Source of the DNA: Limnomonas spitsbergensis
Lineage: Eukaryota > Chlorophyta > Chlorophyceae > Chlamydomonadales
Length of the DNA stretch: 64,000 nucleotides
Reading direction: 5' to 3'
Assembly (NCBI GenBank): GCA_037349105.1
Contig: JAYJMM010000110.1
Coordinates: 1,798,001-1,862,000 of the forward strand
Shown piece by piece: positions 405 to 63,024 of this stretch. Below the pieces are notes generated by a model that saw nothing but the letters and a program-made list of their open reading frames with translations, made no database searches and was not told the origin of the DNA. Each line of letters opens with the position of its first letter. Position 1 is the stretch's first letter. Position numbers and translations under genes: made by a program.

Positions 405-2322
405 GCTAACGCATGGACGTCGGGCTCTGTGTTCAACCCCACCGAGCGGAAGGCCCTGGAGGGCTCGACTAGGAGCCGTCTGGAGGGTCTCAGGAAGAAC
501 AAGCAGCTGCCCTTGGTGTACTTAGACATCACCATCAAGGGCGATGCGGTGGGGCGGATGGAGATCGCGCTGTTCTCCGACGTATCACCGCTAGCCGCGG
601 AAAACTTCCGGAGGTTTGTCACCGGTAAGCGGTCACCTGCCTTGAACTCATCCTTTCGCCGAGCCCTTGGATTCTGTCCCTGTGTGTGTGTGTAGGGGGG
701 CAGGGCGTAGGGCTGGCGAGCCATGAGCAAGGTGGTCAAGAGACTTGCACCGATGAGCCTCCATGTCTAGTATGTGCAAACGCCTGTGACTTCCTCATTG
801 CCTGTTTGCTGGGGAGAGTGGATCCGCCAACCCCTTGAAACCTGTCCCTGTGTGTGTGTGTGTGTGTGTGCAGGGGAGCAGGGCATCGTGCCGGCAGGAC
901 ACGATGGCGCAGGCAAGCCGTACTCTTTCAGGGTGAGCCGGCGGCTTACTCTGCAGCGGGTCGTACGGGCTGCAAGTGCAGCTCTCTGGCTTTTTTTTCT
1001 AGCGCTACACATGTAACGGAACACAAATCAATAACCGTCCAGAATAAACAGTAAACAGAATGACAGTTGTTGCTGCCGTCTAGACATGATCACTTGATGG
1101 CGCATGGCTGTGACGCCAGGAATACCACCAGACTGACGGCATGGATGATGACCCGCTCGCCCTGACCCAGGGCTCCACCTTTTACCGCATCATCGACCGC
1201 TTCATCTGCCAGTCCGGAGCAACCACAGAGTCTACATACGGCGGCGCCTTCAAAGACGATCCAGGCGGACTGCTGCTGAAGCATGATCGAGTGGTGGGTG
1301 ATGTGGGGAACAATAGGCGCGCCCACTGGCGATTTGCTTTTCCAGTGGATTCAAGACGGCCTGCCTTTGGGGGCCGCTGGGTGGCCACTGCTCTACAAAC
1401 CGGTCTACTGGGCGGCCTTCAAAGACGATCCAGGGGGACTGCTGCTGTAGCATGATCGAGTGGTGGGTGCTAATGGGTACAAGAAGCTGATTTTCCTTGA
1501 AATTATGGTGACTCAAACTCAGCTACGCAATTTAGGCACGGTACGGACCGTAATCGGAGGATCTGTTTGTGGACAGATTCAGAGCTTCGTGATGGGATCT
1601 GTTATAGATCTGTCCTTGGTCTAATTGTGTGCCTCCTCCGTTGCTGGTGCAGGGTTTGCTGAGCATGGCCAACACTGGACCCGACACCAACACGGCGCAC
1701 TTTTCAATCCTGATGGCAGCTGCGCCGCACTTGGACGGGAAATACGTCATCTTTGGAGAGGTCGTCGCAGGGTTACACGTAAGCAGGCAGATCTGTATTC
1801 GTTCAGCGGGATTAATATGAACCTCTGTTTCCATTTGGGGTTACCTGACACGCCACCTGCTGCAGGTTCACACGTCAGAAGGCAGAGCTCTCCGTTTTCG
1901 TTCAGCAGGATAAAAGTGAACCCCTGTTTCCGTTTGGGGTTGAAAGAAACACCCCCTGTAACAGTTGAGGCTTCAGGAGATGATGATGTGGGTGTATATA
2001 TACCACTTCTTATGTTCGGGTGCCTCAGCTACACTTCTGCTGCATGATGGGCTACAGCCGGGAGGAGGGGGGGGGGGGCATGGAGCAGCCAGCCCTGCAG
2101 GTTGAGGCACTGGCTGTAGTCATTCCCTACCAGCCGCACGTGGCCCAGCGTTCAGGGCAGGGCCCAGTGGGTTCCATGCACCGTTCTAAACCTGTTCACT
2201 GTCTTGCACCTCGCCTGCAGGCTGCACACAAGATCAATGCGCTGGCCCGAGGAAAGCCCAACAATTCAGCAGGCCCAGAGGAACAGGCGATAATTGCAGA
2301 TAGTGGAGAGATACTGAAATGA
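405..2322 (+). CDS. Cyclophilin-type peptidyl-prolyl cis-trans isomerase (5' partial), 5 exons
   Basis: Exons in window: 405-624, 874-932, 1171-1290, 1653-1778, 2221-2322 (TGA). All phases agree and give 208 residues. Cyclophilins catalyse cis-trans isomerisation of prolyl peptide bonds. The cyclophilin order is clear: VYLDITIKG, then GRMEIALFSDVSPLAAENF, FVTGEQGI, a catalytic-Arg block STFYRIIDRFICQ, the LLLKHDRGLLSMANTGPDTN block, and LDGKYVIFGEVVAG. Arg, Phe and Gln of the active-site block are kept. The usual QFFI strand reads HFSI and the position often Trp in the cyclosporin pocket is changed (PHLDGKY). The reading frame is open upstream of 405 to a stop at 360-362 without an ATG, so the first exon(s) lie upstream or outside the window. 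The short lysine-poor tail after the last exon ends without a targeting signal. Family assignment is firm; subfamily is not. Confidence 0.87.
1411..1470 (+). pseudogene. Partial copy of cyclophilin exon 3 inside the following intron
   Basis: The stretch repeats the last ~50 nt of exon 3 (1240-1290) plus the start of the intron ('cgagtggtgggtg'). One change turns the Lys codon AAG into a TAG stop. It lies about 170 nt downstream of the original, so it is a local duplication of an exon end with its donor site. Confidence 0.85.
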
Positions 2323-6044: not shown

Positions 6045-9000
6045 ATGTCCGGCCTGTCCTCATTGGCGGGCATTCCCAAGCTCGGCGCTCTCGGAGCAGG
6101 AAGACGTGAACCAAGTCAGTATTTTGCATGAACGAGGTTATGAACATTTAAATTCAACAGCGTCGCAACCCTCTGTTCAGGCGCAGCGGACGATGACGAC
6201 AAACCCTCGGTACGAAGGCCACCACCCATTGTGGAGCACTAAGCTTGGGGCGATAGAACTCACCATGTTATATTGTCCTTTGCATGGTGAATTCAGTACA
6301 GCCGCTACCTGCTGAGCATGCCTGCTTCATACCAGCCATGCAGTCAGCTGTGCCATCGCTGGGTACCTCCCAGCGCTGCCATGCACCCCATGCATGCATA
6401 CCAAGGTATCGTTTTATTCAAAATATATCGAAGGATTGGTATCTCCTCATGTGGGGATACTGAACCTGGGCTGAGCGAACCATGCTGCATGGTTGACTGC
6501 GACCCATGCTGCCATGCTTCATGGGTCGCATGGCCATGGGCACGCTCAGGTCTGCTCCTTATAAGGGCCATGCGCAGACTACTGGGAGACACTTTCATTA
6601 AGTTTGAACTGTGCCACTTTGGGATGGCTGCTGGAGGCTTACCACTTGGTGGATTGAGACCAAACTTTGCCGGCCCAGGGCCTGTGGCCAAAGAAAAAAC
6701 CAAGCCATCCCGGCTAAAGGCCAGGTTACTGCTGAATTGCAGTGCAAGCAACTTAAGCATAAGCAATTTTAGTTTTTGCCGAGCCTGGGCCAGCACTGGC
6801 TGGTCCTAAGTACTAAAAACTTGCAATAGGCAAGACCAACACGTTTTTTGTGGGGGGATCCTCTGCCCCCACAGAGGCAGACATCTGCATCCAATTTGCG
6901 GAAATCCACGCCAGCGTCGTTCACGGCTCCGAAGCCCTCCACTGAGGACGACGATGACAGCTTGTATCCCAAGTCGAGGGGTCTTGTGAAGAAGAAGAAG
7001 AAGGATGCGGGCCCTCGAGGAAAGGACAAGGGAGGCGGTGGGTCCCATCCTCGTCTGCTGGTCGAGCTTTTGCATGTACCCGGCATAAGCTTTCTTTCTT
7101 GCTGGTTGTGCTCAGGCATGCACCTCGCAAGGCATGCTCAAGCATGCACACTGTATGGCATGCTCCAGCATGCAGCCCGCATGGCATGCTCAAGCATGCA
7201 CACTGTATGGCATGCTCCAGCATGCAGCCCGCATGGCATGCTCAAGCATGCACACCGCATGGCTGCACTCGCTGAAGCCACACATGTGCGTGCACGCACC
7301 TGTGCCCTTGTGCAAACCCTGCAAACTTAGGGCAAAACTTCGGGCAAACGAAGGGCAAACTTAGGGCAAAATCTTGGACAGGCTTTGACATCGACTCAAG
7401 GAATGTCTATGTGCAAGCTTCTGTCCATTAAGAAGTCACTTTTGAAAAACTTGAAAATGATAGAAACTGTATCACGCCTGTTTGTTTTGGTAATTGGGCT
7501 TTTGGGAAACCGTAAATTTATGGATTTCGGATGCAATCTCCGGCCGAGCTCTGGCATACACAGGCGTAATTTAACCATCTGACGAACGCGCGCCCTTTCC
7601 TGTACAGGAGTGGCCGATCTAAACATAAGAAAGAAAGTGGCAAAATCTCATCCATCATGAGACATGATCACATGAGGGAGCGAGATTTCTCCTCCCAGCT
7701 GCACCCCCATCTGCTGTGCATGCTGGCTTGCCACTCTCCTCCCATTTGCTGTGCATGCTGGCTTGCCACTCTCCTCCCATTTGCTGTGCATGCTGGCTTG
7801 CCACTCTCCTCCCATTTGCTGTGCATGCTGGCTTGCCACTCTCCTCCCATTTGCTGTGCATGCTGGCTTGCCACTCTCCTCCCAGCCCGGGCCCTCATTT
7901 GCTGTGGTTGCTTGCTAGCCATGCCTTCCAGCTGCGCCCTTATTTGCTGTGCCCGTCTGCCTGCCTGCCTATCTCTCTTTCCTGACCCTATTCTACGTGC
8001 GAGTGTGCAGCGCCCTCCTGCCCCTTCTCCCAGCCCCAAACCCATGTGCCATACGTCAAATATGTATGTTTATACCGGAATACCGGTAGGCTTGAGCTGA
8101 CTTAGATGCCTCTTGTCCCAGCCACCCAGCCCCACCCCTAACTGCTTTAACCAACTGTTCTGCCTGCCCTTGTTGTGGTACAAGGCGCCAGCGGTGACTC
8201 AGATGACTTTGACAGCAAGTACACCGCCCCCAAGCCGTCAGCCGGGACAGCATCGGCGTACGGCGCCGCGAGCAACAGCAGCAGCAGCGCGCCCAAGAGC
8301 GCCTACGGCTCAGGCGCTTACGGCGCCGCAGCGGGCGCTGCCAGCAAGCCGAGCAAAGGCCTCTTCGACGATGATGATGACGACGAGTTCCTGGCGGGCC
8401 TGGGCCCGCCCAAGGGCGGGGATGGGAAGCCTGAGCCCGCTGGCGCACGGAAACCAGGTGCAGGCGGCGCCGCCACCGCCGCCGCCCCCTCGGCCGCCCC
8501 GGCGTCGTTGGCGTCGCGCCACGCCGCCAGCAGCAGCATGGCCAAGGCGGTGGACAAGTCAATGGAGTCTATCAGCAGGCTGCTCATGGATGACTTGCCG
8601 CCGACGTCGTCGCTGGGTCTGCTCGATGGGGCCGGCGAGCCGTCCAGGTGAGTGAGACCTGCTGCTGCCACCGCATGGTGCATCTAGGAGGGATTTCGAT
8701 GGGAGGGTGTGTGTGAGGGCCTGCCTTTCCAAGTGGCACACGATTTCCCAATACCTCCTAGTTTCCAGGGTGCTTCTGTTCTGGGTGGCATGCGCTGGCG
8801 GGGGAAGCTGAGGCTGGTGATGGATTAGGTTAAGGGTTTGGGTTAAGGTTTAGCCAAACCCTAGGGTTTATGTTTAGGGTTTATGTCGAGGTTTCACTAA
8901 ACCCTAACTAGGCGGGGGAAGCTGAGGCTGGTGATGCATTGGAGGCCTGACAGGCAAGCAGCCAGCAAAGGCCTGACAGGCAAGCAGCCAGCAGAGGCCT

Positions 9001-12000
9001 GGCAGGCAAGCAGCCAGCAGAGGCCTGACAGGCAAGCAGCCAGCAGAGGCCTGGCAGGCAAGCAGCCAGCAGAGGCCTGGCAGGCAAGCAGCCAGCAGAG
9101 GCCTGACAGGCAAGCAGCCAGCAGAGGCCTGGCAGGCAAGCAGCCAGCAGAGGCCTGACAGGCAAGCAGCCAGCAGAGGCCTGGCAGGCAAGCAGCCAGC
9201 AGAGGCCTGGCAGGCAAGCAGCCAGCAGAGGCCTGGCAGGCAAGCAGCCAGCAGAGGCCTGACAGGCAAGCAGCCAGCAGAGGCCTGGCAGGCAAGCAGC
9301 CAGCAGAGGCCTGACAGGCAAGCAGCCAGCAGAGGCCTGACAGGCAAGCAGCCAGCAGAGGCCTGGCAGGCAAGCAGCCAGCAGAGGCCTGACAGGCAAG
9401 CAGCCAGCAGAGGCCTGACAGGCAAGCAGCCAGCAGAGGCCTGGCAGGCAAGCAGCCAGCAAAGGCCTGACAGGCAAGCAGCCAGCAAAGGCCTGGCAGG
9501 CAAGCAGCCAGCAGAGGCCTGGCAGGCAAGCAGCCAGCAGAGGCCTGACAGGCAAGCAGCCAGCAGAGGCCCGACAGGCAAGCAGCCAGCAGAGGCCTGG
9601 CAGGCAAGCAGCCAGCAAAGGCCTGGCAGGCAAGCAGCCAGCAAAGGCCTGGCAGGCAAGCAGCCAGCAAAGGCCTGGCAGGCACGCAGCCAGCAGAGGC
9701 CTGGCAGTCAAGCAGCCAGCAGAGGCCTGACAGGCAAGCAGCCAGCAGAGGCCTGGCAGGCAAGCAGCCAGCAGAGGCCTGACAGGCAAGCAGTCAGCAG
9801 AGGCCTGACAGGCAAGCAGCCAGCAGAGGCCTGGCAGGCAAGCAGCCAGCAGAGGCCTGACAGGCAAGCAGCCAGCAGAGGCCTGACAGGCAAGCAGCCA
9901 GCAGAGGCCTGGCAGGCAAGCAGCCAGCAAAGGCCTGACAGGCAAGCAGCCAGCAAAGGCCTGGCAGGTAAGCAGCCAGCAGAGGCCTGGGAGGCAAGCA
10001 GCCAGCAGAGGCCTGACAGGCAAGCAGCCAGCAGAGGCCTGACAGGCAAGCAGCCAGCAGAGGCCCGACAGGCAAGCAGCCAGCAGAGGCCTGGCAGGCA
10101 AGCAGCCAGCAAAGGCCTGACAGGCAAGCAGCCAGCAAAGGCCTGACAGGCAAGCAGCCAGCAAAGGCCTGGCAGGCACGCAGCCAGCAAAGGTTAGCTG
10201 GTCAGAGGGAGTTCCCCGCCTGAACTAACTCAAACTGCTGGCAAAGGCTGGCTAAAGGGGGCGCCCCGCCTGCACTAACTCAGAGCGCTGGCAAAGGCAT
10301 CCAATGCTTGCAAGAGATTCTTCGTGGCGGTCCATGCTTGCCGACGTTTTCCGAACGTCTTGCAGGTGTCTTGTTTTTATACTTTCTGATGATTGCGTGT
10401 GCTGTTGTTGCTGCTGAGTTAATGAAACCGCCGAAAGCAAAAGTGTGACTGTTTGTGTGTGTGTGTGCCAAACTTGCTGCAAGCAGCTCAGGAACCCCCA
10501 GGGCTGGCCGGAGAGCAGCAGGCGCTCCAGCTCCAGCCCCCTCTCCAGCTCCAGCGCCAGCTCGCGCTGTGTCGAGGTCGCCCGAATCCTCCCCAGAGCC
10601 GGCGATGAGAGCTGCTGAGAAGCTGCCAGTCAAAGGTAGGTCTTAGATGCTGCCGGGAAGCTGCCAGTCAAGGGTAGGTGGTGGAAGCTGCCATTCAAGA
10701 GTAGGTATTGGAAGCGGCAGTTAAGCTGCCAGGCAAGGGTAGGAATTGGAAGCCACTGATAAGCTGCCAGTTAAGGGTATGTATTGGGAGCCGCCGGGAA
10801 GCTGCCAGTCAAATGTAGGTCTTAGAAGCCGCCAGGAAGCTGCAAGTCAAGGGTGGGTCTTAGAAGCTGCTGGGAAGCTGCCAGTCAAAATTTGTCTTGG
10901 CAGTTGCCGGGAAGCTGCAAGTCAAATGATGGAAGCCGGAGAGAAGCTGCCAGTCCAGGGTAGGTATTGGAAGCCACAGGGAAGCTGCAAGTCGAACGCA
11001 GGATTTAGCTTTGTGTGTCTGTTTGTGAGGATCTGTGTGTGTGCGCGGGGGGCATGTGGGGGCATGTCAGGGTGGGTGGATGAAGCCGATGCCCCCCCTT
11101 CCCCTACCCCACGGACCTTCCAACCGCCCTTGCCCCTCTGCGCCGCCCCACTGAACTTCCATCCGCCCTTGCACCTTGCCCCTCTGCCCTTTGTACCCTG
11201 CCCCTCTGCCCTTCCAACCACCCTTGCCCCTTGCCCCCCTGCCCCTGTGCCCTCTGCAGCGCCGGCAGCTGCTCCAGGCCGACAGATGGAGCCGTTCGGA
11301 TCTCAGTCGGGCCATGGCCACGGGCTGCAGCCCTCGCCAGAAAGAGTATCTAGACTGGGCGAGGAGCAGTATTCACTTACCACAGAAACATCAAGGGGTG
11401 AGAAGATAACTAGATAATTGGAAATTTGTGGAAGCTCGTGGAAACCTGTGGAATCTTGTGGAAACTTGTGGAAGCCATTGACACGCTCCCCTTCTCCCCC
11501 CCCCCTCAGGTGCGTCTGCAACCAGAGCCGGGCGACGAGGCGGGCCGCTGGCAGAACCCGTAAGTCGATTTGCTAGCTTGTCTCATAGCTGCCTTCGAAT
11601 TTTGAATTTTTAATTCCGAAGCTGCCAGATTCTGAATGTCCAGCCTGGAGGAGCTGGGTCGGGGGGGGAAAGGGTCAAAGCTGCCTGGGATTTGAATTGT
11701 GAAGCTGCTTGATGTTTGAATTTCGAACTTGGGGGTTAGGGTCGGTTGGGATAAGTGGGACCCTTGCTGCATAGTAGGACCTGCCACTGTGTCGTTCACT
11801 ATTTTCTGGCATGTACTCTTTTGTTGCGCACGCCAAACCGCCTTTGGCCGGTCGCTGGGCGGCTATCACTGGGCCAGGAGGAAAGTCAGTATGGCCCAAG
11901 CAGAGCAGGGCATGCAGGGCCGGTCTTCACAGCCACAGCTGTTTGTAGCTAAATTTGAGCTGTTTTTGGCTGGGTTAGAGCTTCGGCACTATATTATGCT

Positions 12001-15000
12001 TTTTACTCCAGATCCCTCTAACATGGCACCAACGCCAGATCTCTTGGCAGCAACCCAAGATCTCTATGTCTCCATGGCATCAAAGCCAAATATCTCGGAG
12101 TCTGGCAGGAGTGGCAGTCTGCCCGAGCCTCCAGTGAGGCTGGGTCAAAGCTTCGGCACGTTATTATGCCTGCCACACTCCAGGAATCCAGCTTGGCGAC
12201 TTTTGGCCCGGTCCCTTGGCAGCATCTCATGATGGCGTTTAGACATCTCACATTAAAACGATTGGAGGCTTGGCAGCGCTGTGGCAGTGTTCCATGATGG
12301 TGTTGATGGAACCTTTTCAGATATCTAATTTCTGCACGATATCAGGCACGAGATCTTCTCAGCTACTGCTCCTATAGCATGCAAGTGTGTCCTATATATG
12401 GGCTTCAATGGGGATCTCAACTCCTGGCCTATTCCTGGCCTATTCCTGGCCTATTCCTGGCCCATTCTTGGCCTATTCCTGGCCTATTCCTGGCATCCAA
12501 GAGGAACCATGGGCCTCATTGGGGCTGTTTCAGGCATGCTGATACCCTCACAATTTTATCTCCCTAATGCTGCCCCTCACAATTTCATCTCCCCAATGCT
12601 GCCCATCTGCCCCAATAACAACACAATTTCATCTCCCCCTTGCTGCCCCTCCCCCAATTACGTTTCCTATCAGGCGGCCCCTGCACCGATGGCATCCAAG
12701 AGTAACCTGGACATGGACTTCAGCGGGGATCTTGACATGCCGGGCATGGGCAGCCCAGTGATCGCCCCTTCTGTTGGTGAGACATGGGGAGCACTAGCTG
12801 GTTGTGATAGCCGGGGGATGGTGGGACATGCCGGGCATGGGCAGCCCAGTGATCGCCCCATCAGTTGGTGAGACATGGGGAGCACTAGAGAATTGTGATG
12901 GCCGGGAGATGGTGGGACAGGCCGGGCATGGGCAGCCCTGTGATCGCCCCATCTGTTCGTCAGCACTGGTGATGGTGGGGTGATGGTCAGGCGTGGCAAA
13001 AGGTGCCCCGCGATAGTCCCCTCTGTGAATATTTGGGGGAGTATTAGTGATGGCGGAGGGATGGACTTAACGGGCAGGGGATGACCTGTGCCAGTCCCGT
13101 CATCTGGTGAGGCAGGGGCCCTGCCGCAAGGGCCACAGGGGGGCAGTTGTGATGGTAGGGTGATGGTCTACAACAGCCCCTTCTGCTGATGAGGCAGGGG
13201 GGGGATCCCCTGCATTGGACCCATGATTGCCCATGATGACCCATGCTTGCCAAATGCTGTTCATCAGCCCTTTGTCAAGGGAGTTACCCTAGGCCGCTTT
13301 GAGGAGTTAAGGCGGGGGAAGATTTCCCACCATGCTCTGGCTACATCCGATTACCACCCCTCCGTCCACCAATTGCCCCCTGTCTTGCCCTGGCTCCCCA
13401 GCAAGCTCGATAAACTCGGGTTTCGGAGGCCCGAGCGGAAGGCGCGGCGGTGAAGGCCACACTGCAACCGCGTCCAACCTTGGGCCGTCGCCGCTGGGTC
13501 AGACAGGCGACGCAAAGCCAACGGCAGCTGCCGCAACGAAGCCGTCGAGAGCGGCACAGTCTGTGAGGTTCAGCGACAGCTTTGGAGACGACCCGATCCT
13601 CCCGGACGAGAGCGGGCCCAGTGGCACCGCGGCCGCCGCCGGCGGCGGCGGGCGGCAGCCGCCGCCGCTGCAGCAGGGCCGCGGGGCGCTTGGCGATGCG
13701 TCGGGCGCAGGCAGCGGAGGCAGCGCTGCGGGTAGCAATAAGACGTCTCCGTTTGGCTCTCGTCAGGCCACGCCGGAACGCACAACACGCACGAACACCT
13801 TGCTTCCATCAGGTGCGGTGTGCAGGAGCGTCACCGTGGGAGGGCTTTGAAGAGTACCAGTAGGTACGGGATTGCGGGGCGGTACCGGGAGGAGGCAGAT
13901 GCGTGGCGGGGAGGGCCGGGGGGTAGGTTGGTGATTGCGGAGAGGTAAATGGGTTTTAGGTGGGGCATGGAGTGATGGTTCCACGTCACTGTTATGTTTT
14001 ATAGAGCATTTCTGCTGCGACTCGGTGGACTGGTAGCTGTGTAGGTGGACTGGTAGCTGTGAAGAGACACACATTGCTCATTCCTTTTGAACCCCGTCGT
14101 CTTCGTTGAATTCTGCCTAACGGTTGTTGAGTTTTTAAGAACCTTGGTCTTGTTGAGTTCTACCTTGGGCTTGTATGATGTTTCCTGCGCAGGCAAGGAC
14201 GTGTCGGCGCCAACCGACGACTCAGACGACGACGTCGGCGGCGGCGGAGGCGGAGGTTACATGCCCTCCTTCATGGGCAGCAGCAACACCCGTAAGTCCG
14301 CGCCCTCCAACCCTTTCTACGGCTCCGCCGCGCCGGGCCTTCAGCAGAACCAGCAGCCGGCGGGGGGCGCCAGCGCCAGCGGAGCGGACACCGGCGACAA
14401 GCCGCAGCCGCGCCAGCGGAGGAACATTCACGGCGGTGATGTCGGCAGCGGGCCTGCCTCAGGAGCGGGGCGATTGAACCCGCTGATGGGCGGCCCGCTG
14501 GCCAGCGGCGGCGGGGGTAAGCCGAAGAGTAGGGAGGACGAGGAGCGGGAGGAAACGGCGGTGGCCATGGCGGCTGCGCTGCAGCGGCGACAGGCGGCGT
14601 CATCGGGCCCTAACACATCAGGCCCATTCAGGTGATCACTCGTTGTTGTTTTCTTTATTGTTGTTTCCGTTAGCAGCCATTTCGGTCTCTCTTACTCTTC
14701 CCCACCTCTCTTTCTCTCTCCCCTCCCTTACTTCTTCTCTCTTCCACTCTTGCAACTCCCTACCCCAGCTAGCAATGCGCCCTACTCTTACTATCCCCTA
14801 CCCCAACTAGCCCCTTCTCTTGCAATTTCCACCCCAAGTCCCCGACCAGCCAAGCCCTGCTCTCACTACCCCCTACCCCAGCCACCCGCGTGCCCCCCAT
14901 TCTTTATCGTCGCAGAATCCCCGCGGAAACCAAGAGGCCGTCCACTGCCTCTGCCTCTCTGGGTACGAGCACCGCAGCTGCCGCCCAAGCGTCGGCGATG

Positions 15001-18000
15001 CGGAAGAGCGCGATCGACTTCCTGGATTCGTCCAACGAAGATGTATGTCAGCATGCTAGAGAGCTTTCCCGCTTGCCCGCTGGTTCTCTCTCATGGTCCT
15101 GCTTGTCTATGTCAGGGGCATGGCTTCCAGCCCCCGCTCCTCCTCCTTCTGCTTCCCCTATCCTCTCCTCCTCCTCCTCCTCCTCCTCCTCTTCGCCCAA
15201 GCAGCAGGGGGGGGGGGGCAAGCAGCAGGGGAGGGAAGTCCCAAGCCGCTTCCTCCATCCTCCACCTTCTCCTCCTCCACCCATGTTCTCACTGCCTGCA
15301 CATAATTTACCGTAAGCTCCAATCCTAAACTCTCCTCCCCCCCCTGCATTGTTCTCAGGACCTCAACCTCTCCTGCCCTCAACCCTAATCCCACATCCTC
15401 CTCCTCGACCCCTTGCCTCAGGGCCTGGACATCCCTAATATCAAACCCTAATCCCTCCTCCCCCCCGCTGCATTGTTCTCATGACCTCAACCTCTCTTGC
15501 GCGAAACCCTTAACCTACTCCCTCCTCCCCCCTTGCATTGTTCTCAGGACCTGGACCTTCCTGGCATGAAGGCGCCTGCAAAGCCTGCTCCTGCTTCGTC
15601 CCAGCAGCTGCCGGGCCGCGGCGCGCCTGCTGTCCAGCAGCAGTCCATGGGGTCCAATCAGCAGCAGGCCAGCAGACAGCGAACTCCGAGTCCACTGGGC
15701 AGGTATTTGTGCGTGTGCGCGCCTGTTTTGTGTGTGTGTGTGGCAGGCCAGCAGGCAGCGATCCCGCGTCCATTGGGCAGGTATGTGTGTGTGTGTGTGC
15801 GTGCCTGTGTCTGAGAGTGTGAGTGTTGGGGTTGAGGGGTGGCACCGTCAGCGGAGAGCCCTAAGTCCACAGGGCAGGTGTGTGTGCATATGCATGCCCA
15901 CATACCTGCCCTGTACGTGTCCCTCTCACCTGTGTCTGAGAGTGTGAAGGAAAGAGCATATTTTTTCCGCTTCTCCCCTTCTTTTTGTCGGCTAAGATTT
16001 TGCAAAAAGAGGTTTATGATTCTGCAGTGTTGGGGTTTTGAGGGGTTGCACCTTTGGCGGAGAACCTTAAGTCCACTCGACGGGTTTGTCTGTGTGTCTT
16101 AGTGTGTGTGTGTGTGGCAGGCCAGCAGGCAGCAAACCCGAGTCCACTGGGCAGGTGTGTGTGCATGCCTGTGTCTGAGAGTGTTGGGGTTGGGGGGTTG
16201 CACCGTCAGCGGAGAACCTAAGTCCACTCAACAGGTTTGTCTGCATGTCTTTGTGTGTGTGTGTGTGGGGGGGGGGGGGGCAGGCCAGCTGGCAGACGAA
16301 CTCAAGGGCGAGTGTGTCCACAGGGCGAGTGTGTGTGCATGTGCCTGTGTGTGAGAGAGCGTATGTATCTTCATGTCGGTGAGGGGGGGGATAGGACGGG
16401 GTTGCCCTTGCCCCCCTTGTTCTTTCTGATTTCTTCCCTTCCTTTTCTCCAGAGTGGACAAGCGTGTGTCAACCCTCCCCCCCCCCCTATATGTATAGGG
16501 TTTAGGGACCCCCCCCCCCCCCTCCAGAGTGGACAAGCGTGTGTCAACCCTCCCCCCCCCTCTGTATGTATAGGGTTTAGACCCCCCCCTCCAGGGTGGA
16601 CAAGCGTATGTATAGGGTTTAGGCCCCCCCCCCCGTTGAGAGTGGACAAGCGTGTGTCAACCCTCCCCCCCCCTCTGTATGTATAGGGTTTAGACCCCCC
16701 CCACCCCTCCAGAGTGGACAAGCGTGCGTCAACCCTACCCCCCCCTCTGTATGTATAGGGTTTAGACCCCCCCCCCCCCTCCAGAGTGGACAAGCGTGCG
16801 TCAACCCTACCCCCCCCCCCTCTTTTCCCTCAGCAGGATAGACAGGACTGCATCAAACCTCGATGTGCCCTCCGCGAGAGCCGCACCTGCACCACAACAG
16901 CAGCCACCACAACAGCAGCAACAACAGCAACCGCCCAAGCAGCAGCAGCCCTCCGTGGTGGTACCTCCCCCGCAACAGCTGCAACAGTCCCAGCCGGTCA
17001 TGCAGGCCTCCCCCACCGGAAGCGATCACGCGACGCGGTTGTCAACCTCCTCCCTTGGGGGTGGCGGCATCTCGCCTGGCGGCGGTGGCAGTAGTGGGAA
17101 TCAGTTTGCGTTTCAGCAAGCGGAAGGCAGCCGGGGCGGAGGGGGAGGGGGCGCCTCGCTCCCCCCCGGCGTGACGGCCATGGGCGGCGGCGGCGGCGGT
17201 GGTGGCCCGAGCGGGGTAGGGAACTGGCCCTCTGGGGTCACGCCGCTGAATGGGCCGCCGCCGGGAGTTACGCCGCTCGCTGGCGTCCCGCCTGGCATAA
17301 CCTCGTTCCAGAACCCGTCCGTTGGAGGGGGCCCTGCGGACGGGCAGGGCCTGCCGCCTGGCATCACTCCGTACTACAGCCCGCAACAACAGCCACAGCT
17401 GCAACAGCAGCAACAACAACCTCAGCAGCTGCAACAACAGCACCAGCAACCACTGCTGATGCAACAGCAGCAGTTTCAGCAGCAGCCTCAGCAACAACTG
17501 CAACAGTTGCAACAGCCGCAACAGTTGTTTCCGTCCTCTGGAGGATCAGGATTCGACGCCTCGGCCGCGCTGTTCGGGCCGGCGGTATCGGCCGCCTCGG
17601 CCGCCGCCGCCGCCGCCGAAACAAAGCAGCTGGCCGAGCGCGCCGCGGCGCTCCAGAAGGAGCACGAAGCGGCGCTGGAGGCGGCCAGAGGGGATGCCAG
17701 CAGAGCGCAGAGTGACACCGCCCGCGCTCTGGCAGACGCCAGCAAGGCGCAGGTGTGTGCGCGTTTAAACGCATGTGTGTGTCAAAGCTCGACTGCTTGC
17801 ATCATGTTGGCAGTGGTAGCTCTGCTGGGTTCCCGTAGCCGCGCTGAGATACAGCTCCTCCTCCCCTAAACCCTAAGCCCTTCCCGGCTTCCTTCATGGG
17901 AGAGGAGAGGCAGGCTGGATAGTTGCCATTCGACAGTTCTGCTATATTTGTTTGACCTGTTGTCTGACCCTTTCCCAGAGCTGCAGCGCAATGTCTCAGT

Positions 18001-45780: not shown

Positions 45781-45785
45781 AGCAG

Positions 45786-46470: not shown

Positions 46471-46569
46471 GGTCTGATTTATAGTTGAGTGGCCATTATA
46501 TAATTTGGGCGCCCACGTGGCCATGTTCAGGACGCTGACAGACGATTGAGCTCCCACAGATCATGACGT

Positions 46570-56013: not shown

Positions 56014-59000
56014 ACAGCCTACCCACGTCCTTGTCACCCCTTTCCTACCTGTCACACTCCCACTTGCCCCCATCGTGCTTTCGACGCCGATCGCCGAATC
56101 GAGTTTAACGATCAACGGGATCGGGATTGTGGTGGACAGCGGGTACAGGAAGTCGCCACAATTTAATGCCAGGACAGGTGTGTGTGGGGGGAGGGGAAGT
56201 GTGGACGGCAAACGGAAATTGTAATCGGATCAGATCGGATCGGATCGGTTCGGATGGGTTCGGATCTGGTCTGATGTCACTGGTATTGTGGTGGGCAGCA
56301 GGGACCGGAAGTTGCTGCAATTCGACGTCAGGACAGGTGGAGGATAAGTGTGGACAGCAACCACATTGTGGATCCTGATGTGATCTGGTCTGATATGATA
56401 TGATGTCCCTGCAATTCAACGTCAGGACAGGTGAGGGCGCCCGGAGGCCACTGCTGTTTATTTCTAGTTTATAAACCCTTAACCCTTAATAACCCTTAAC
56501 CCTTAACCCTGAATAACCCTTAACCCTTAACCCTGAATCTTAATATCTCAGTCCAATGTCAGTACAGGTGTGTGTGTGTGGGGGGGGGGGGACCAAACGG
56601 AAATTGGTTCCTCTTACAATGCACATGCTGTACACGCTGTCACGCTGTTACGATGTACACGCTGTCACGATGTACTTCCTCTCATGGTGTTCACGCTGTC
56701 GAGATGTACTTCCTCTCATGATGTTCACGCTGTCACGGTGTAATTTCACAGTTCTACTCATGATGTACACGCTGTCACGATGTACTTCCTCCCATGATGT
56801 ACACGCTGCCATGATGTAATTCCACAGTTCCACTCATGATGTACAGGCTGTCACGATGTACTTCCTCTCATGATGTGCACGCTGTCACGATGTACTTCCT
56901 CTCATGATGTGCACGCTGTTACGATGTACTTCCTCTCATGATGTACCCGCTGTCACCATGTACTTCCTCTCATGATGTTCACGCTGTCACGATGTACTTC
57001 CTCGCATGATGTTCATGCTGTCACAATGTACTTCCTCTCATGATGTTCACGCTGTCACGATGGACTTCCTCTCATGATGTACACGCTGTCATGATGTACT
57101 TCCTCTCATGATGTGCACGCTGTCACGATGGACTTCCTCTCATGATGTGCACGTTGCCACGATGTACCGTAGAACGACTTTGACTCCGCTCGTAATATAA
57201 TTATTGGGGTGCGCGGACATGCTGCGCGCTAATAATTGATAAAACAAAATCAGCGGTGTGCGGAGTTGAACTCAGGTTTTCACCCTATTCGATGTGCGAA
57301 TGGTCGGTCAGGTGCCTGTATGAACTCCTGCGCGGCCAGAAATTAAATTAATTTCAAAAATTTCGTCGCTGCTCAACCGTTTTTTAATTCTTTTTAGCTG
57401 CGCGACGAAAAAAAAAATATTCGGGGGGGTGCGCGGAGTCTAAGGTGTTCTACGGTACTTCCGTCACGGCAGTTTGTACCTGCCATGTCTCTTTAACGCA
57501 GGGAGCAGGTACCGTTCTGATCTTCTTGACTTCGTCACACACCTCCCCCCCCTTCCCCTTCCCCTTCCCCTTCCCTTGACCCTTTTTGACCTCTTTCGAC
57601 CCCTAAACCCTAAGCACCTTTTCCTTATCCTCTGCCTCTCACAGACCTCAATTTCGGTTGCCAGCTCTGTCCCGATTCTCTCTGAAAGGTCCTTTCGAAA
57701 ACGGCTTTGGTTGGTAGCGTTAACTCGGCAGCGTCGAACCTGACCCCCTTTCAGACTTACCCTTAACCCTCAACCCCTCACAGCCCAAACCCTGAACCCT
57801 GAATCCTCAACCTCTCACAGCCCAAACTCTAAACCCTTAACCCCACACGGCAGGCGTCAACGCTCTCAAAATGGTGCGCATCAGCCAGGCTTCCGCGGAG
57901 CAGCGTACGGGCCGAGCGGGACGCACCGGCCCGGGTGTGTGCTACCGTTTATGGGACGAGGAGGGGGAGAAGGAGATGATGGATGCCACGATGCCGGAGG
58001 TGCTGGAGGCGGACCTGGCCTCGATGGTGTTGTACATGGCAGCATGGTAAGGAGGGCAAGGGTGAGGGGAATGGGGGCAGAGTGGCAGGGGGACGGTTGT
58101 GTGTTACTGGTAATGGGACAAGGAGGGGGAGAAGGAGATGATGGATGCCACGATGCCGGAGGTGCTGGAGGCGGACCTGGCCTCGATGGTGTTGTACATG
58201 GCAGCATGGTAAGGAGGGCAAGGGTGAGGGGACTGGGCCCTGGCTTGGCTCTCAATTTTCGAATCGTTTTTTTTCAAACCCTTTACTCAGGGGTCACATG
58301 GATGTGCAGGCGTTGCCCTGGCTGGGCTTGACAGGTGTCAACCGTACTCTTTACCCCCCCACACACACCCCCCTCCCTGCTTCTCCCCGGTCTCTGTCTC
58401 TCATAGGGCCGGACCGACGTGAAGGCGTTACCCTGATTGGACTTGAAAGGTGTCAACCATCTTACTCATCACTTCCCCCTCCCTGCTTCTCCCTGGTCTC
58501 TGTCTCTCCTAGGGGCCGGACCGACGTGAAGGCGTTGCCCTGGCTGGACGAGCCTGTTGACGCGCATGTCAGCTGCGCCGTGCAGCTGCTGCTCAGCCTG
58601 GGAGCAGTGGACAAGGAGGGGCTAGCGACGGCAGAGGGGCAGAGGATGGCACGGTGAGTGGAAGAGGGGGTGGTACGGTGAGGGGAATGGCACGGTGAGT
58701 GGAAGAGGGGGGGGGTGAGGGGTGTGTGTGTGTGGGTGGACAAGGAGGGGCTGGCGACGGCAGAGGGGCAGAGGATTGGTACCGGCCCACAGAATGCAAA
58801 CCTCGCAGTAGCGTCGGTTTTTCTGTATCTTTGAATTTGAACCTTATACCCTTTTACCTTAATACCCTTAAGCTTACATACGGTACCCTTATACCCTTAA
58901 CCTAAATGCCTATACAACACTTACACCCTAAACCTTATATACCCTTATACCCTAAACCTTACACTCTCACCCATTGACCCGTTGGCCCTTAAACGTGTAG

Positions 59001-62000
59001 CCGTTGCAGCTGGTTTGGGGGGTTTTGACCATAAACCCGCAACTCTTGAGTCCAATGACCCGCTGATCTGTCAAGCCTGAAACCCGCAAGTGTTGTTGCA
59101 GGCAACTGTTTAGGCGTTGTCGGGTTTTTGACCCAAAACCCTTAGCCCGCCGATCCGATTTTGAACTGTTGATCTTCGAACCGGCAACTGTTGCTGCATG
59201 TCTGGGGTTGGGAATCACTGGGCTGCACCCTACACCCAAAACTGAGGTTGGGTTTGGGATTGGGGTTGGGGTTGGGAAGTTTAGGAGTTGTACCCTACAC
59301 CCAAAACCCCAACTACGTTGGCACGCTGATCCGTTGATCTCTGAAATGGCAACTGTCGCTGCAGGTTTGGCGTGCACCCGCGCTTCGGCCACCTAATTCT
59401 CCGCAGCCTCGACTTCGGAGCGCCCGAGCTGGGCTGCCTGCTGGCCTCCCTGCTTGAAGAGCGTGACCTATTTAAGTACGGGCCGGACGGCCCCGTGGTC
59501 ACCTCCAAGGACATCATGCTGCGGCTGCGTGTGCTGGCGGTGTTCGCGCAACAGGTGCCGCCGCCACCGCCGCCACCACCGCTGCGTGCGGAAGGAGGAG
59601 AGAGCAAGAAGAACGCGGCAGGTGGGTGGTGGTCACACTGCCTCTTCTGCTTCTTCTGCTTCTGCCTCTGCTTCTGCTTCTGCTTCTGCTGCTTCTGCTT
59701 CTGCTGCTTCTGCTTCTGCTGCTGCTTCTGCTTCTGCTTCTGCTGCTGCTGATTCTGCTGCTTCTGCTTCTGCTGCTTCTGCTTCTGCTTCTGCTTCTGC
59801 TTCTGCTGCTTCTGCTTCTGCTGCATCTGCTGCTTCTGCATCTGCATCTGCTGCTGCTGCTGCTTCTGCTGCTGCTTCTGCTGCTGCTGCTGCTTCTGCT
59901 GCTTCTGCTGCTTCTGCTGCTTCTGCTGCTTCTGCTGCTGCTTCTGCTGCTTCTGCTGTGGCTGCTGTTGCTGCTGTTGCTGTTGCTGCTGTGGCTTTTG
60001 CTTTTGCTTTTGCTGCTGTTCCAGCCTCAAGGGTTTGGCGTTTGTGTCATCTCGCATCAGAGTATAAGGCCACCTTCAGCAGGCGGCTGGGCATCCACCG
60101 ATGGGCTAGGGAGAACGGGGCATGAACCGGCCTAAGGCTGGCGGCCCTCGGCAGTTGGGGTATGGACCGGCCTGAGGCTTGCGGCCCAAGCAGCACGCGC
60201 TGCCCGGTCCCGACTGATTCCAATTGATTATAACCGATTCCACCCAGCATTATGTCGCGCATCCCCACATGAAGAACTCACTAGCTGGCACAGCCTATCG
60301 TAAACAATGCATTTATGCACACTTAAACATGGCACTCCGGTAACCCGGCTTTATGCAAACTAAGGTTTAAGTAACTTAATGCAGGTTACCCTAAGGTTAT
60401 GTAATATACAGATACTACCCTTGATTGATTGTAAACAATGCAGCCCTCGTAAACAATGCATTGACACACAGGCAATCTGAAAGTACGGCAGCTCACCGAA
60501 CGTGGCTGTTTTGGTCCCCGCTGCAGCAGCCACGTGGCGGCGGCCGTGATGCGCGACAGCATGGATCCGGTGCTTGAGGGTTTAGGGTTTAAACCCTCAA
60601 CCCTCAGCCCTCAACCCTCAGCCCTATTCCATTCATCCATAAACCCACAATGCGCTGCAGTATAGATCTGGTGCTTGAGGGGGAATGGCTTGATGGTTTA
60701 GGGTTAAAACCCTGAACCCTCAAACCTAGACCATTCACCCTAAACCCTCAATGCGCAACAGTATGGATCTGGTGCTCCAGGGGTTGAATCCTTTCACCGA
60801 TAACCCTAAACCCTTTTCAACCCTCTTTCTTTGACCCCCGTACAGCACGTGAATTCCACACTGCCAACGCCTTCCGGAGCTACGTTGTTTGCCACAGCTG
60901 CCTGCTGTCTGCAAAGAGCAGGTTCCGCCAGCTTCAGGATTCACAGGAGCGGGAGCAAAAGCGCACGCGGGGCGGCAGCGGGGGTGGTAACGGAGCTGGC
61001 ACAGATAGCAAGGCTGCCGCTGCCACAGCGGCAGCGGCGGCAGCCGCCGCTGCTGCAGCTGCGGCGGAAGCATTCCTGCTGCCCGGATCCTCCTTGGAGT
61101 CCGTTTGGGACAGCGGGGATTTCTTTGCCTTGGGCCTGGATGTGGATGAAGATGAGGAGCTGCCCCTGCCGCCCCCCAGCCTCGTCCTCTCGGCCAAGGG
61201 CAGCTCCTGGCTGGATGCGCGTGACTTCAATGGCAAGTGGGCTGAGCAGATGAAGGACGAAGATCTGGTGGCGGCACTGGTAGCCATGGCCTACCCTGAC
61301 AGGCTGGCGAGGTGGGTGATTGGGTGGGTGGGTGCGGAGCTAGGGGCCATGGCCTAACCTGACAGGCTGGCAATGTGGATGGTGGGTGGGTGGGTGGGTG
61401 CAGAACTGGTGGCCATGACCTAACCTGACAGGCTGGCAATATGGGTGGGTGGGTGGGTGGGTGCAGAACTGGTGGCCACGACCTAACCTGACAGGCTGGT
61501 GATGTGTGTGTGTGTGGGTGTATCAGTTGCAACCATTGTGGCCATGGCCTACTCTGACAGATCTGGCAATGAGGATGGATGTGGCTTTCATTGTCTGTCG
61601 AGTTCGAATTATGCACAAAGATGGCGTGCATTTTCATCCTTGCAAATCACGTTCACACTCACATCCACACTCGTGTTCACACCATCTACCTTCCAAGGCT
61701 CTAGTTTGCATCCACTCACAGGGTGGACAAACAAGACAAGACCGGTGCTCGCATGAAGATCGCGCCAAACGGACGCAAGGCCTTCATGCGCGGCTCCCCT
61801 AGCTCTGAGTCCGTTGCCATAGCGGACATGATGACGATGGACGGGACATCCGCGGGCATCGTGTTCCTCATGGCGAATCTGACGTACGAGGTGCGGCAAC
61901 CACCAGCATTTGGCATGCCCTTAGCCCTACAACTTAAATACCTAGGCTAAGCCCTCAATTGTAAATCCTAAATGTAATATGTACAAACTGTGGCAACATC

Positions 62001-63024
62001 CAGCATTTACAACATATAGTCATATACCCCAGCCATATAACCTACACCCCAGGATTAACCCCAGCCCCACCCCAGCTTGTGACCTATACCCCAGCCCTTA
62101 AGCCTATACCTCTATGAACCCCAGCTTTACCCCAGCCTTGGGTTCCTCTACCCCACAATCCACCCCAGCCCTACCGCAGCCATATAACCTACACCCCAGG
62201 ATTAATCCCAGCCCCACCCCAGCTTGTGACCTATACCCTATCCCTGTAACATGGGCTACCCTAAACCCTAAACCCTAAACCCTCTAGCCTTACAGTTTTA
62301 CTAGGTTTTTATCCGGGTTTCCCTTAAGTAACCCTTAGCCTTTTCCTAGAGTCAGCTGACAAGGGTTTCCCTAGGCTCTCCCTAGGGTTTCTCACTGCAT
62401 TTATCTGCCCCCTACGTCAGGCGGCGATGCGCTACATAGGATTCCGACCAGGGTTTTCCTTAATGTTTCTCTTAGGGTTTCCTAGGATTCTCCTTAGGGT
62501 TTCACACCACATTTATCTGTCCCCTACGTCAGGCGGCGAAGCGCCACATGAGATTCCGACCAGGGTTCCCCACGGATTCTGCTTTCATCTGTCCCCTACG
62601 TCAGGCGGCGATGCGCTACATATGCTTCCGACCAGTGTTCCCCACGAATCCCCCTAGTTTTACCTAGGAGTTTCTCACTGCATTTATCTGCCCCCTGCGT
62701 TAGGCAGCGGAGCGCTACCTATAATTCCGACCAGGGTTTCCCTTAGGGTTTCTCTTAGGGTTTCCCTAGGATTCTCCTAAGGGTTTATAACCCCATTTTA
62801 AAATATCTGTCCCCTAAGCCACCAAAAGTATCTGCCTCCTTCGTCAGGCAGCGGAGCGCTACCTGGGGTCCATGCTCACGCTCAAGACGACCGATTGCTA
62901 CGTCGAGCCTACCACGATGAGCCTCCTCATCAGTAACATGTGGTGCATGGAGAACTTCTACCTGGTGAAGAAGCAGCTGCCGCCCACCTGCTCTGATGCA
63001 GAGGGCTTGAAGATTTTTCTCAAG
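56014..63024 (+). CDS. HrpB-type DEAH-box RNA helicase, C-terminal two thirds (partial at both ends)
   Basis: Exons: ~56014-56177, 57854-58046, 58513-58653, 59365-59621, 60846-61311, 61722-61890, 62848-63024; phases agree and the frame stays open at the last donor. Exon 1 carries motif V and following strand: TPIAESSLTINGIGIVVDSG. Exon 2 has motif VI, QRTGRAGRT, then GVCYRLW. Exon 3 has DVKALPWLDEPVD and the winged-helix/ratchet part (LLSLGAVDKEGL, AEGQRMARFGVHPRFGHLIL, LLEERDLFK). Exon 5 has the HrpB-type VAALVAMAYPDRLAR, and exon 6 has PNGRKAFMRGS. A poly-Pro and a poly-Ala insertion lie between. The N-terminal RecA domain (motifs I-III) is not found upstream. The start of exon 1 is uncertain. 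HrpB-type helicases remodel RNA using ATP; the substrate here is unknown. Confidence 0.83.
56280..56580 (+). repeat. Three degenerate copies of the first helicase exon end
   Basis: The exon end 'tttaatgccaggacag|gtgt' and the upstream codons IVVDSGYRK are echoed at 56284-56336, 56404-56431 and 56548-56565. Each copy keeps CAGGACAG|GT or CAGTACAG|GT. Confidence 0.82.
56635..57163. repeat. 34-nt minisatellite, about 15 copies
   Basis: Unit 'catgatgtacacgctgtcac' with 'gatgtacttcctct'. It contains the partial palindrome CATGATG/CATC. It is interrupted at its right end by the element at 57164. Confidence 0.9.
57164..57458. mobile_element. 295-bp MITE-like element with terminal inverted repeats
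   Basis: Left end GTACCGTAGAAC, right end GTTCTACGGTAC: a perfect 12-bp inverted pair, extended imperfectly to ~28 bp ('gactttgactccgctcg' versus 'gcgcggagtctaag'). The element sits inside the 34-nt minisatellite; removing it and one GTAC rejoins 'cacgatgtacttcc', a normal satellite phrase, so GTAC is a likely target duplication. The interior is AT-rich with GTGCGCGGA motifs and no ORF. Confidence 0.8.
58047..58213 (+). repeat. Tandem copy of the second helicase exon end plus donor
   Basis: The exon end 57934-58046 is repeated about 164 nt downstream, ending in CAGCATG|GTAAGG again at 58210. The copy has GGTAATGGG where the exon has GTTTATGGG, creating an in-frame TAA. Confidence 0.9.
58291..58460 (+). 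repeat. Two upstream copies of the third helicase exon start
   Basis: 58291-58328 encodes GHMDVQALPWLGLT and 58407-58451 has 'ggccggaccgacgtgaaggc' with a stop (CCC TGA). Both follow an intact AG acceptor like that at 58512. The first could be spliced in frame as a mini-exon because it also ends in a phase-compatible GT. Confidence 0.85.
59640..60025. repeat. (CTTCTG / CTGCTG)n array, about 390 nt
   Basis: Imperfect TGCTTC and TGCTGC hexamers fill the intron after the fourth helicase exon. They give long low-complexity frames on both strands (poly-Leu, poly-Ala/Ser, poly-Lys/Gln) that have no splice support. Confidence 0.95.
61345..61575 (+). repeat. Four copies of the fifth helicase exon end
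   Basis: The exon end 'gccatggcctaccctgacag' followed by 'gctggcgag|gtggg' is echoed at about 61347, 61413, 61473 and 61540, with TAA in place of TAC in the first three copies (CCTAACCTG). Confidence 0.88.
62421..62735 (+). repeat. Four upstream copies of the last helicase exon start
   Basis: The genuine exon starts at 62848 after CGTCAG. Copies of acceptor plus 'gcggcgatgcgctacat' start at 62421, 62533, 62605 and 62704, each followed by 'attccgaccagggtt' or similar. All keep AG; the fourth has TAG. Confidence 0.9.

Follow-up and report, generated by a model that had tools for sequence, protein, structure and literature searches.

Copies of exon edges beside their own splice junctions in introns of Limnomonas spitsbergensis, and the question of junction preference

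Introns in a 64,000-nt stretch of the Limnomonas spitsbergensis genome (GCA_037349105.1, contig JAYJMM010000110.1, 1,798,001-1,862,000, forward strand; the whole stretch is hereafter the window) appear to hold partial copies of the edges of neighbouring exons, splice sites included. Are these copies real, where do they come from, and does the process that made them prefer exon-intron junctions, as a first-pass annotation of this DNA had proposed? Four plus-strand genes of the window were rebuilt as open frames, giving 47 exons and 86 junctions. The models to which the following sections refer are:

1132..1293, + strand: exon 3 of a cyclophilin-like gene (open-frame gene model; Pfam Pro_isomerase 2.5e-31; source edge at 1293)
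6045..39061, + strand: FBF1-like gene (30 exons, 2037 codons, inner stop absent)
56025..63024, + strand: C-terminal part of an HrpB-like helicase (7 exons, stop-free)

The match of the FBF1-like gene to Pfam FBF1 (4.9e-7, 29.1 bits) is under the 45-bit cut-off, and those of the helicase gene to Helicase_C and HA2_N are both under cut-off as well; the relatives of the helicase are HrpB. A local copy is present for 45% of the intron bases of the FBF1-like gene, and the PG-rich gene is nearly free of local copies (0.2% of intron bases), a point absent from the first-pass annotation. Six kinesin loci with 55 junctions, picked blind to their repeats, formed a further gene set.

Exon-edge copies in the adjoining introns

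A copy matching at least 32 of 50 bases lies within 1.5 kb of 26 of the 86 window junctions, where 3-kb stretches drawn at random from distant parts of the window predict 0.21. Raising the threshold to 34/50 leaves 24/86, and none of the distant draws reached that score. At 36/50, a copy was found at 7/55 junctions of the kinesin set. The presence of exon-edge copies beside their junctions, well above chance, is thus confirmed. When all 21 positions named in the first-pass annotation were scored, with position 20000 used as a proxy for the array at 19822-21594, 18 reached at least 33/50 in an ungapped comparison with the neighbouring exon. The other three (35046, 56284 and 58407) scored 29, 27 and 31, and copies of the exon edges behind them were confirmed by BLAST pairs: 34892-34941 with 35158-35207 (82%, the copy lying 110 bp past 35046), 56123-56211 with 56282-56360 (72%), and 58416-58549 with 58301-58442 (81%). 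The claim of up to sixteen copies also held, with 16 at the FBF1 exon 15 acceptor. A difference between donors (15/71) and acceptors (8/70) is not supported (P 0.17). The sites in the cyclophilin-like and FBF1-like genes are:

1415..1482, + strand: 68-bp copy of the 3' edge and donor of cyclophilin-like exon 3 (90% to 1246-1313; preceded by a 101-bp spacer; in-frame stop)
10606..11013, + strand: copy field of the 3' edge and donor of FBF1 exon 5 (7 copies reaching 32/50, GT intact in 7/7; tandem array 10610-10993)
12734..12963, + strand: 91-bp tandem array of the FBF1 exon 8 donor edge (2.5 copies, 91%)
15743..15825, + strand: copy of the 3' edge and donor of FBF1 exon 12 (80%)
18916..18983, + strand: copy of the 3' edge and donor of FBF1 exon 14 (76%)
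19786..21734, + strand: 118-bp tandem array of the FBF1 exon 15 acceptor and first 23 exon bases (98%; AG intact in 16/16)
21815..22100, + strand: 84-bp tandem array of the FBF1 exon 15 donor edge (GT intact in 3/3 copies)
26046..26130, + strand: copy of the 3' edge of FBF1 exon 17 (88% to 25957-26042; donor GT lost, 0/1)
27247..27439, + strand: 80-bp copies of the FBF1 exon 18 acceptor edge (41/50 at offset -80)
29327..29468, + strand: upstream copy of the FBF1 exon 20 acceptor edge (79% to 29540-29692)
29763..30863, + strand: FBF1 exon 20 donor field (donor-like unit array and a longer exon-edge copy, 30690-30863)
32353..32546, + strand: upstream copy of the FBF1 exon 23 acceptor edge (69% over 228 columns; 38/50 at offset -146)
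33246..33286, + strand: upstream copy of the FBF1 exon 24 acceptor edge (90%; 171-bp spacer)
35158..35207, + strand: copy of the 3' edge of FBF1 exon 26 (82%; spacer still like its tandem partner)
36564..36646, + strand: copy of the 3' edge of FBF1 exon 28 (80%)

In the helicase gene, paralogues could be compared at several sites; paralogues lie at C110:2132038-2140582, C109:41813-45230 and C100:3587515-3591453:

57932..58075, + strand: original unit of exon 2, 144 bp (last 115 exon bases and donor; 29 intron bases in all)
58076..58093, + strand: 18-bp filler between original unit and copy (missing in paralogue L030)
58094..58237, + strand: copy of the exon 2 unit (95%; 6 mismatches in the first 27 bases, 1 near the right end)
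58301..58442, + strand: upstream copy of the exon 3 acceptor edge (81% to 58416-58549)
58736..58776, + strand: 41-bp copy of exon 3 (98% to 58607-58647; stops 6 bp before the donor)
61283..61560, + strand: array of the exon 5 donor edge (the near paralogue has a longer one; one match in each of two distant paralogues)
62357..62878, + strand: acceptor-edge copies upstream of exon 7 (near paralogue aligns throughout)

Where the window has two exon 2 units and the filler, paralogue L030 on the same contig has one unit, and two distant paralogues each give a single match. In this one case L030 shows the pre-duplication state. The exon 7 upstream copies had no match in the two distant helicase paralogues. 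Copy number among paralogues varies both at a junction array and within an intron interior. Together with a Spearman correlation of 0.70 between intron length and repeat share (n=43), the single-unit paralogue supports the proposal that local duplication acts as intron growth.

The suggestion that each copy stems from the nearest exon was borne out where it was tested. Exon-edge units of FBF1 10400-18900 had no matches elsewhere among the 40 scored of 295 candidate genome places, so that similar copies in the introns of many genes, as expected of introners, were not seen at those places; helicase exon-edge matches elsewhere are paralogues. The statement that copies always include the junction nearly held. 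Among 34 exon-derived entries (exon overlap of at least 20 bases; one exon-exon pair and low-complexity pairs excluded), copies of 29 distinct exon edges span the junction by at least 6 bases and three cross it by 2-5 bases, but two stop short, by 6 and 10 bases. None of the 34 comes from deeper than 10 bp inside an exon. Junction-blind copying and pasting from any nearby source would leave about one-third of exon-derived copies without a junction by our own geometric estimate; with only 2/34 seen, contiguous duplication is the better fit. Donor copies lie downstream in 48/48 cases and acceptor copies upstream in 50/50 (window and kinesins), which is where contiguity demands them. Inverted local copying is rare: direct and inverted copies number 47 and 0 loci in the window, and 159 and 19 in all stretches read.

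In a list of 41 two-copy pairs, from which arrays and low-complexity pairs were left out, the gap is zero or less in 11 and above 30 bp in 23; the independent pairs are fewer, since a single family in a tandemly repeated gene supplies four rows (L022-L023) and what looks like a further repeated segment supplies two (L010-L011). Gaps above 30 bp made up 10% in a pure tandem simulation and 0.28-0.34 with deletion turnover, against the observed 23/41. The spacer before 1415-1482 is unlike the partner predicted for a plain tandem unit (score 13; shuffle mean 13.4), and that of 35158-35207 has kept its likeness to the tandem partner (score 66, where 200 shuffles gave at most 23). Head-to-tail arrays occur at some junctions and not at the two-copy pairs.

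Local-copy coverage and junction preference

If duplication favoured junctions, coverage by local copies might be expected to peak there. Neither the window genes nor the kinesins showed such a peak. At 36/50, window coverage is 0.05 in the exon interior (-100..-60), 0.21 in the last 10 exon bases, 0.15 in the first 10 intron bases and 0.31-0.32 at 100-300 bp into the intron, a fall from intron to junction to exon; the kinesins give 0.13-0.15 at the junction and 0.10-0.17 deeper in the intron. The comparison of repeat overlap at junctions and at intron positions, proposed as a check in the first-pass annotation, came out against junctions: intron bases were more often copied in all three gene sets, with shares of 0.407 against 16/86 junctions (window), 0.173 against 7/55 (kinesins) and 0.138 against 3/44 (random sample). 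The last set is a redone 180-kb sample, limited to exons scoring at least 10 and 60-1600 bp long, with interiors more than 30% repeated dropped and identical exons counted once; its figures are for 36/50 and for introns within 1 kb. In its first version (ab initio gene finder; 93 junctions of strong predicted exons), exons seemed more repeated than introns, a result that we rejected because the gene finder had called tandem arrays, chiefly L008-L009, coding.

We also simulated placement-blind tandem duplication in which exon-internal duplications were rejected, using four hand-set parameter pairs. The nearest of the four (lam 0.004, K 0.35, 8 runs) gave junction 0.156 +- 0.042, intron 0.477 and exon 0.088, the observed window values being 16/86, 0.407 and 0.087. 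Placement-blind duplication can therefore give a close match to the coverage profile, as it did in one of four hand-set simulations. The simulations give junction-to-intron coverage ratios of 0.25-0.40, below the value of about 0.49 seen in window plus kinesins.

Counts of families lean the other way. Junction-spanning families number 23/54 against a placement-blind expectation of 16.6 (P 0.02), and over seven thresholds the excess is 1.2-1.75-fold (P 0.012-0.42). The remaining 31 of the 54 intron repeat families at 36/50, which the first-pass annotation had omitted, span no junction. An earlier, cruder count (23/70 junction clusters; 11.1 expected, sd 2.8) was replaced because it used a tight 60-exon-base cap and present intron lengths; both counts are above expectation. 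Among two-copy genic families, 8/14 lie across a junction; a tandem-only model predicts 0.23-0.24 (P 0.007), and one that includes deletion turnover 0.27-0.33 (P 0.04 at 0.31). Overall, the family-level excess is about 1.2-2.1-fold, or 2.4-fold against the simplest model, with nominal P of 0.007-0.42. A weak junction preference is thus possible. That the process prefers junctions is not established, given the peak-free coverage and the close profile from a placement-blind model.

A filtered, nearly junction-blind duplication and its alternatives

We consider it likely that the introns of this genome have been lengthened by frequent short-range duplication, blind or nearly blind to splice junctions and filtered by selection. 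Stretches of about 30-290 bp would be duplicated in direct orientation, beside or near their source, with breakage and repair as the presumed chemistry; some duplications would carry filler or a spacer and some would expand into arrays. Selection would then shape the visible set. A fully exonic unit would alter the protein and be lost, a fully intronic one would be retained, and so would a junction-crossing one, because the original edge is still joined to the exon body and the copy lands in the intron. Such a filter would leave exon-derived copies that carry the junction, stem from the adjoining exon and, relative to their source, follow donors or precede acceptors. Pairs anchored in an exon would also stay recognisable for longer, as one partner is constrained. 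The direct orientation and boundary crossing of the copies are those of tandem genomic duplication across an exon-intron boundary; the process is of a known kind, and dense in this genome.

A machinery that favours junctions, for example through breaks at R-loops or splice-site-bound chromatin with the product pasted into the adjoining intron, would account for the family-level excess, for the lack of exon-derived entries from more than 10 bp inside exons (0/34) and for spaced copies in which the spacer shows no remnant of a longer tandem unit (1415-1482, for example). We nevertheless think it unlikely: coverage has no junction peak, intron bases are copied more often than junctions in every gene set, intron-only spaced pairs occur (62025-62098 / 62172-62245), and tandem contiguity by itself already forces inclusion of the junction. 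Equally doubtful is its wider form, in which duplications start preferentially at or near junctions, gene structure steers intron growth via transcription- or splicing-linked breaks, and splicing ignores near-perfect decoy fields. Minisatellite slippage alone, with arrays born in introns and some overlapping exons by chance, would suit the several junctions at the ends of long arrays (19786-21734, 29763-30863), but is very improbable because short-unit slippage does not readily yield two-copy pairs of 37-144 bp, in some cases with spacers or filler, and eight of the junction families are such pairs. An assembly artefact is hardly credible; repeat-rich introns are difficult to assemble, yet the copies diverge at many sites (69-98% identity) and loci elsewhere, on other contigs, show a like pattern.

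The copies could also be exons, alternative or constitutive, that encode repeated protein segments, a reading whose constitutive form the first-pass annotation had itself set against its own. Many do retain their sites (GT in 40/48 donor copies, AG in 43/50 acceptor copies; family means 0.73 and 0.61), and in 13 of 26 window families a copy is no weaker in score than the authentic site, in agreement with the earlier view that duplication leaves decoy splice sites behind. Over-retention of GT or AG is not claimed, since the scoring windows were centred on the site; selective loss of decoys is unsupported by the same figures. Exon duplication would give complete open exons flanked by two splice sites, but the copies carry a single exon edge. 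In-frame stops fall within 48 bases or less in 5/14 donor-side copies, and the full-length window frames are open without the copies, with no extra intron needed between them. We regard repeated exons as very improbable, and the authentic sites as presumably those used in splicing.

Bearing on introns and likeness to known systems

The exon-edge copies bear on how introns lengthen and how a splice site is chosen among equally strong neighbours. With 16-26 of 86 junctions (by threshold) beside their own copies and paralogues that differ in copy number, this genome lends itself naturally to the study of both questions. Gene prediction is affected too: a copy of an exon edge whose splice site is intact is readily miscalled as an exon. 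Templated or filler-bearing end joining of double-strand breaks can leave filler at joins, and the 18-bp filler between the helicase original and copy, our one well-resolved breakpoint, may be of this kind.

In the literature, whose full texts were compared in part, we recognised no paper describing this exon-edge copy pattern. The portions compared of a potato RdRp study (PMC4974935) describe a short direct tandem duplication across an intron-exon boundary that carries splice signals along, and another 83-bp duplication within an intron. The boundary-crossing duplication with its splice signals is common to both systems. In potato the copy gave rise to a new spliced intron and exon, whereas here, with frames open without the copies, the outcome would be an existing intron that has grown and holds unused sites. 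In Chlamydomonas and Volvox, tandem-repeat density is highest in introns, and the green algal survey, in the portions compared, uses units of 1-50 bp and reports enrichment near intron-exon junctions (PMC3887541); in our introns the local-copy share by tenths goes from 0.34 at the 5' end to a maximum of 0.51 and down to 0.27 at the 3' end, the opposite shape on a different measure. Introners (PMC9860276) are likewise repeated sequences tied to introns, but they spread between genes, whereas no FBF1 exon-edge unit was found away from its own place among the 40 candidates scored of 295.

Gene models and the extent of local copying

The whole window (C110:1798001-1862000, C110 being contig JAYJMM010000110.1 of the 260-Mb, 124-contig assembly) was read, and four plus-strand genes were modelled by hand, comprising 47 exons, 43 introns and 86 junctions. 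The joined reading frames of all four lack inner stops. The minus strand carries two more genes, which by eye look RING- and kelch-like; the analysis covered the plus-strand genes.

Genes modelled in the window
Plus strand, cyclophilin-like gene: 5 exons; Pfam 2.5e-31
Plus strand, FBF1-like gene: 30 exons, 2037 codons; Pfam FBF1 4.9e-7, 29.1 bits, below the cut-off of 45
Plus strand, small PG-rich gene: 5 exons; GPGTY motifs
56025-63024, plus strand, HrpB-like helicase, C-terminal part: 7 exons; Pfam helicase domains below cut-offs

A Pfam search with the PG-rich product gave no match; its GPGTY motifs are, we presume, reminiscent of PG-rich tail proteins. The HrpB-like product has its top match in the green alga Monoraphidium neglectum (52% identity, 40% of query covered). 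The source organism is probably a ciliated green alga. No exons for the first half of this helicase were recognised upstream of 56025, and the gene, found as its C-terminal half alone, may be partial. Directly upstream of its first exon lies an interspersed repeat of ~357 bp (55504-55860) with ~40 matches among those listed, mostly at 87-96% identity and spread over many contigs.

Local copying was measured at each position as the highest-scoring ungapped 50-base match inside 1.5 kb. A score of 36/50 matching bases was reached by 26.4% of window bases, compared to 0.6% in a dinucleotide shuffle (400-base blocks). Copies were present at 10/43 donors and 6/43 acceptors at this threshold, and at 14/43 and 10/43 at 34/50. 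At 32/50 they occurred at 26/86 junctions against an expectation of 0.21 from random distant 3-kb stretches of the window, and no such distant draw attained 34/50. The FBF1 exon 13 acceptor (16837) was below threshold and excluded from the counts; units with CCAGAGTGGACAAGCG at 16426-16834 resemble, by eye, decayed copies of this exon's start. The first-pass annotation had reported exon edges copied with their splice sites into adjoining introns: 18 of its 21 positions were verified ungapped at 33/50 or more, and the exon edges behind the remaining 3 by BLAST pairs. A genome search with the exon-edge units from 10400-18900 of FBF1 yielded no match at another locus among the 40 of 295 candidate places scored.

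Intron bases with a local copy amounted to 44.9% in FBF1, 36.4% in the helicase, 13.5% in the cyclophilin gene and 0.2% in the PG-rich gene. Per intron tenth, 5' to 3', the repeat share was 0.34, 0.37, 0.41, 0.51, 0.46, 0.45, 0.43, 0.43, 0.40 and 0.27. Long intronic arrays (8942-10193, 22926-23554, 24218-25816 and 26462-27247; units of 26, 21, 15 and 22 bp, at most 106 copies) lie for the greater part distant from junctions. Telomere-like TTTAGGG/CCCTAAA tracts occur in or next to introns at 63226-63712, 60592-60814, 56474-56538 and 35000-35270. A 134-bp segment occurs at 5054-5187 and again, 7 kb away, at 12005-12138, with 96% identity; one of the two lies inside an FBF1 intron, and the duplication is over longer range than the others.

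A genome search for kinesin motor domains gave 139 matches, from which six loci (L024-L029) were picked by size and several matched exons, blind to their repeats; exon edges were placed by matches, peptide reading and splice signals. At 36/50, copies were found at 5/28 donors and 2/27 acceptors and covered 17.3% of intron and 5.3% of exon bases. The intron repeat share was uneven (2.0%, 4.3%, 0, 14.8%, 38.9% and 19.9% for L024 to L029). In a third set, ab initio exons after filtering from 180 kb of other stretches, 3/44 junctions had a copy. The stretches L022-L023 hold a predicted gene in ~4 tandem repeats over 20 kb, with almost identical exons.

Placement of copies and junction preference

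In the window and kinesin loci together, with matches of 32/50 sought up to 2.5 kb away, all 48 donor copies lay downstream and all 50 acceptor copies upstream. Copies had been said always to include the junction; this applies to 32 of 34 exon-derived entries, 29 spanning it by at least 6 bases and 3 by 2-5, while 2 stop 6 and 10 bases short. Contiguous duplication that spares the protein yields exactly this placement and junction inclusion. Over the full set of stretches read, 159 repeat loci were in direct and 19 in inverted orientation; the window itself had 47 direct loci and no inverted ones.

The proposed preference of the duplication process for junctions found no support in coverage, which in window and kinesins alike drops off towards the exon and shows no junction peak, but family counts do exceed placement-blind expectation. 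We simulated tandem duplications placed anywhere in a gene, rejecting events within an exon or spanning a whole exon, with four hand-set parameter pairs and 8 runs per pair. The nearest simulation (lam 0.004, K 0.35) gave junction, intron and exon shares of 0.156 ± 0.042, 0.477 and 0.088, compared to 0.186, 0.407 and 0.087 observed in the window; with the remaining three pairs, the intron share came to 0.52-0.63 and the junction share to 0.165-0.253. At 34/50, the observed junction share (24/86) was two SD over the nearest simulation (0.18 ± 0.046). The junction:intron coverage ratio for window and kinesins (23/141 over ~0.33) was above the simulated 0.25-0.40, a ratio sensitive to the proportion of coverage made up by arrays.

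Junction-spanning families numbered 23/54, where the expectation given the lengths of the units and of the reconstructed introns was 16.6 (P 0.02), the excess ranging from 1.2 to 1.75 at seven thresholds (P 0.012-0.42). An earlier, cruder count gave 23/70 against 11.1, and 16 against 8.7 and 9 against 5.5 at stricter thresholds. Among two-copy genic pairs of at least 80% identity, 8/14 spanned a junction, compared to simulated shares of 0.23-0.24 under the tandem model and 0.27-0.33 with deletions balancing growth (P 0.007 at 0.235, 0.04 at 0.31). Since one partner of an exon-anchored pair is constrained and only one is deletable, such pairs are favoured without any preference; yet the second simulation, with deletion turnover, includes both effects and remains below the observed excess. 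For the most part, the junction excess is probably an effect of survival and of small numbers.

Helicase paralogues and a possible mechanism of duplication

An inverted helicase paralogue, 0.28 Mb off on the contig of the window (C110:2132038-2140582), shows 87-98% identity across the pieces that align, from ~56068 onward. Its exon 2 is intact, with the exon edge in single copy. In the window, 18 bp of filler separate a 144-bp unit (57932-58075) from a second, 95% identical unit (58094-58237) with six differences within its first 27 bases, one near its right end and, by eye, a stop in the exon 2 frame. Judged on these two copies, the difference would be a gain in the window or a loss in the near paralogue; two distant paralogues likewise show a single match to the unit. 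Matches to the exon 5 donor array span ~320 bp in the window and ~830 bp in the near paralogue, with 1 match in each distant paralogue, and copies of the intron-interior stretch 62025-62245 are more numerous in the near paralogue than in the window. Copies therefore vary between recent paralogues, at junctions and elsewhere. The stretch with acceptor copies before exon 7 aligns over its full length to the near paralogue; in the two distant ones, the exon alone matches.

Gaps over 30 bp separated 23/41 pairs overall, where some rows repeat one family, and 8/16 in window and kinesins. Simulated values were 10% for pure tandem duplication with small indels and 0.28-0.34 with deletion turnover. 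The FBF1 exon 26 spacer retains likeness to its tandem partner, scoring 66 where 200 shuffles reached at most 23, that of the intron pair at 62025 is marginal (19 against 18), and the spacers of the cyclophilin exon 3 and FBF1 exon 24 copies showed no likeness to the expected partner. The filler and spacers suggest that breakage and templated end joining may operate alongside slippage.

Candidate decoy splice sites and known systems

Scored with a matrix trained on the same authentic sites, 18/33 donor and 20/28 acceptor copies in the window reached at least the lower quartile of those sites, and in 13/26 families some copy matched or outscored the authentic site. By score, these exon-edge copies are candidate decoy splice sites.

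Tandem duplication across an exon-intron boundary is described in PMC4974935 and reviewed in PMC3443670, and PMC3887541 gives introns as the region of highest tandem-repeat density in two green algae. The present case stands out by its density and by the probable outcome, lengthened introns carrying relic exon edges.
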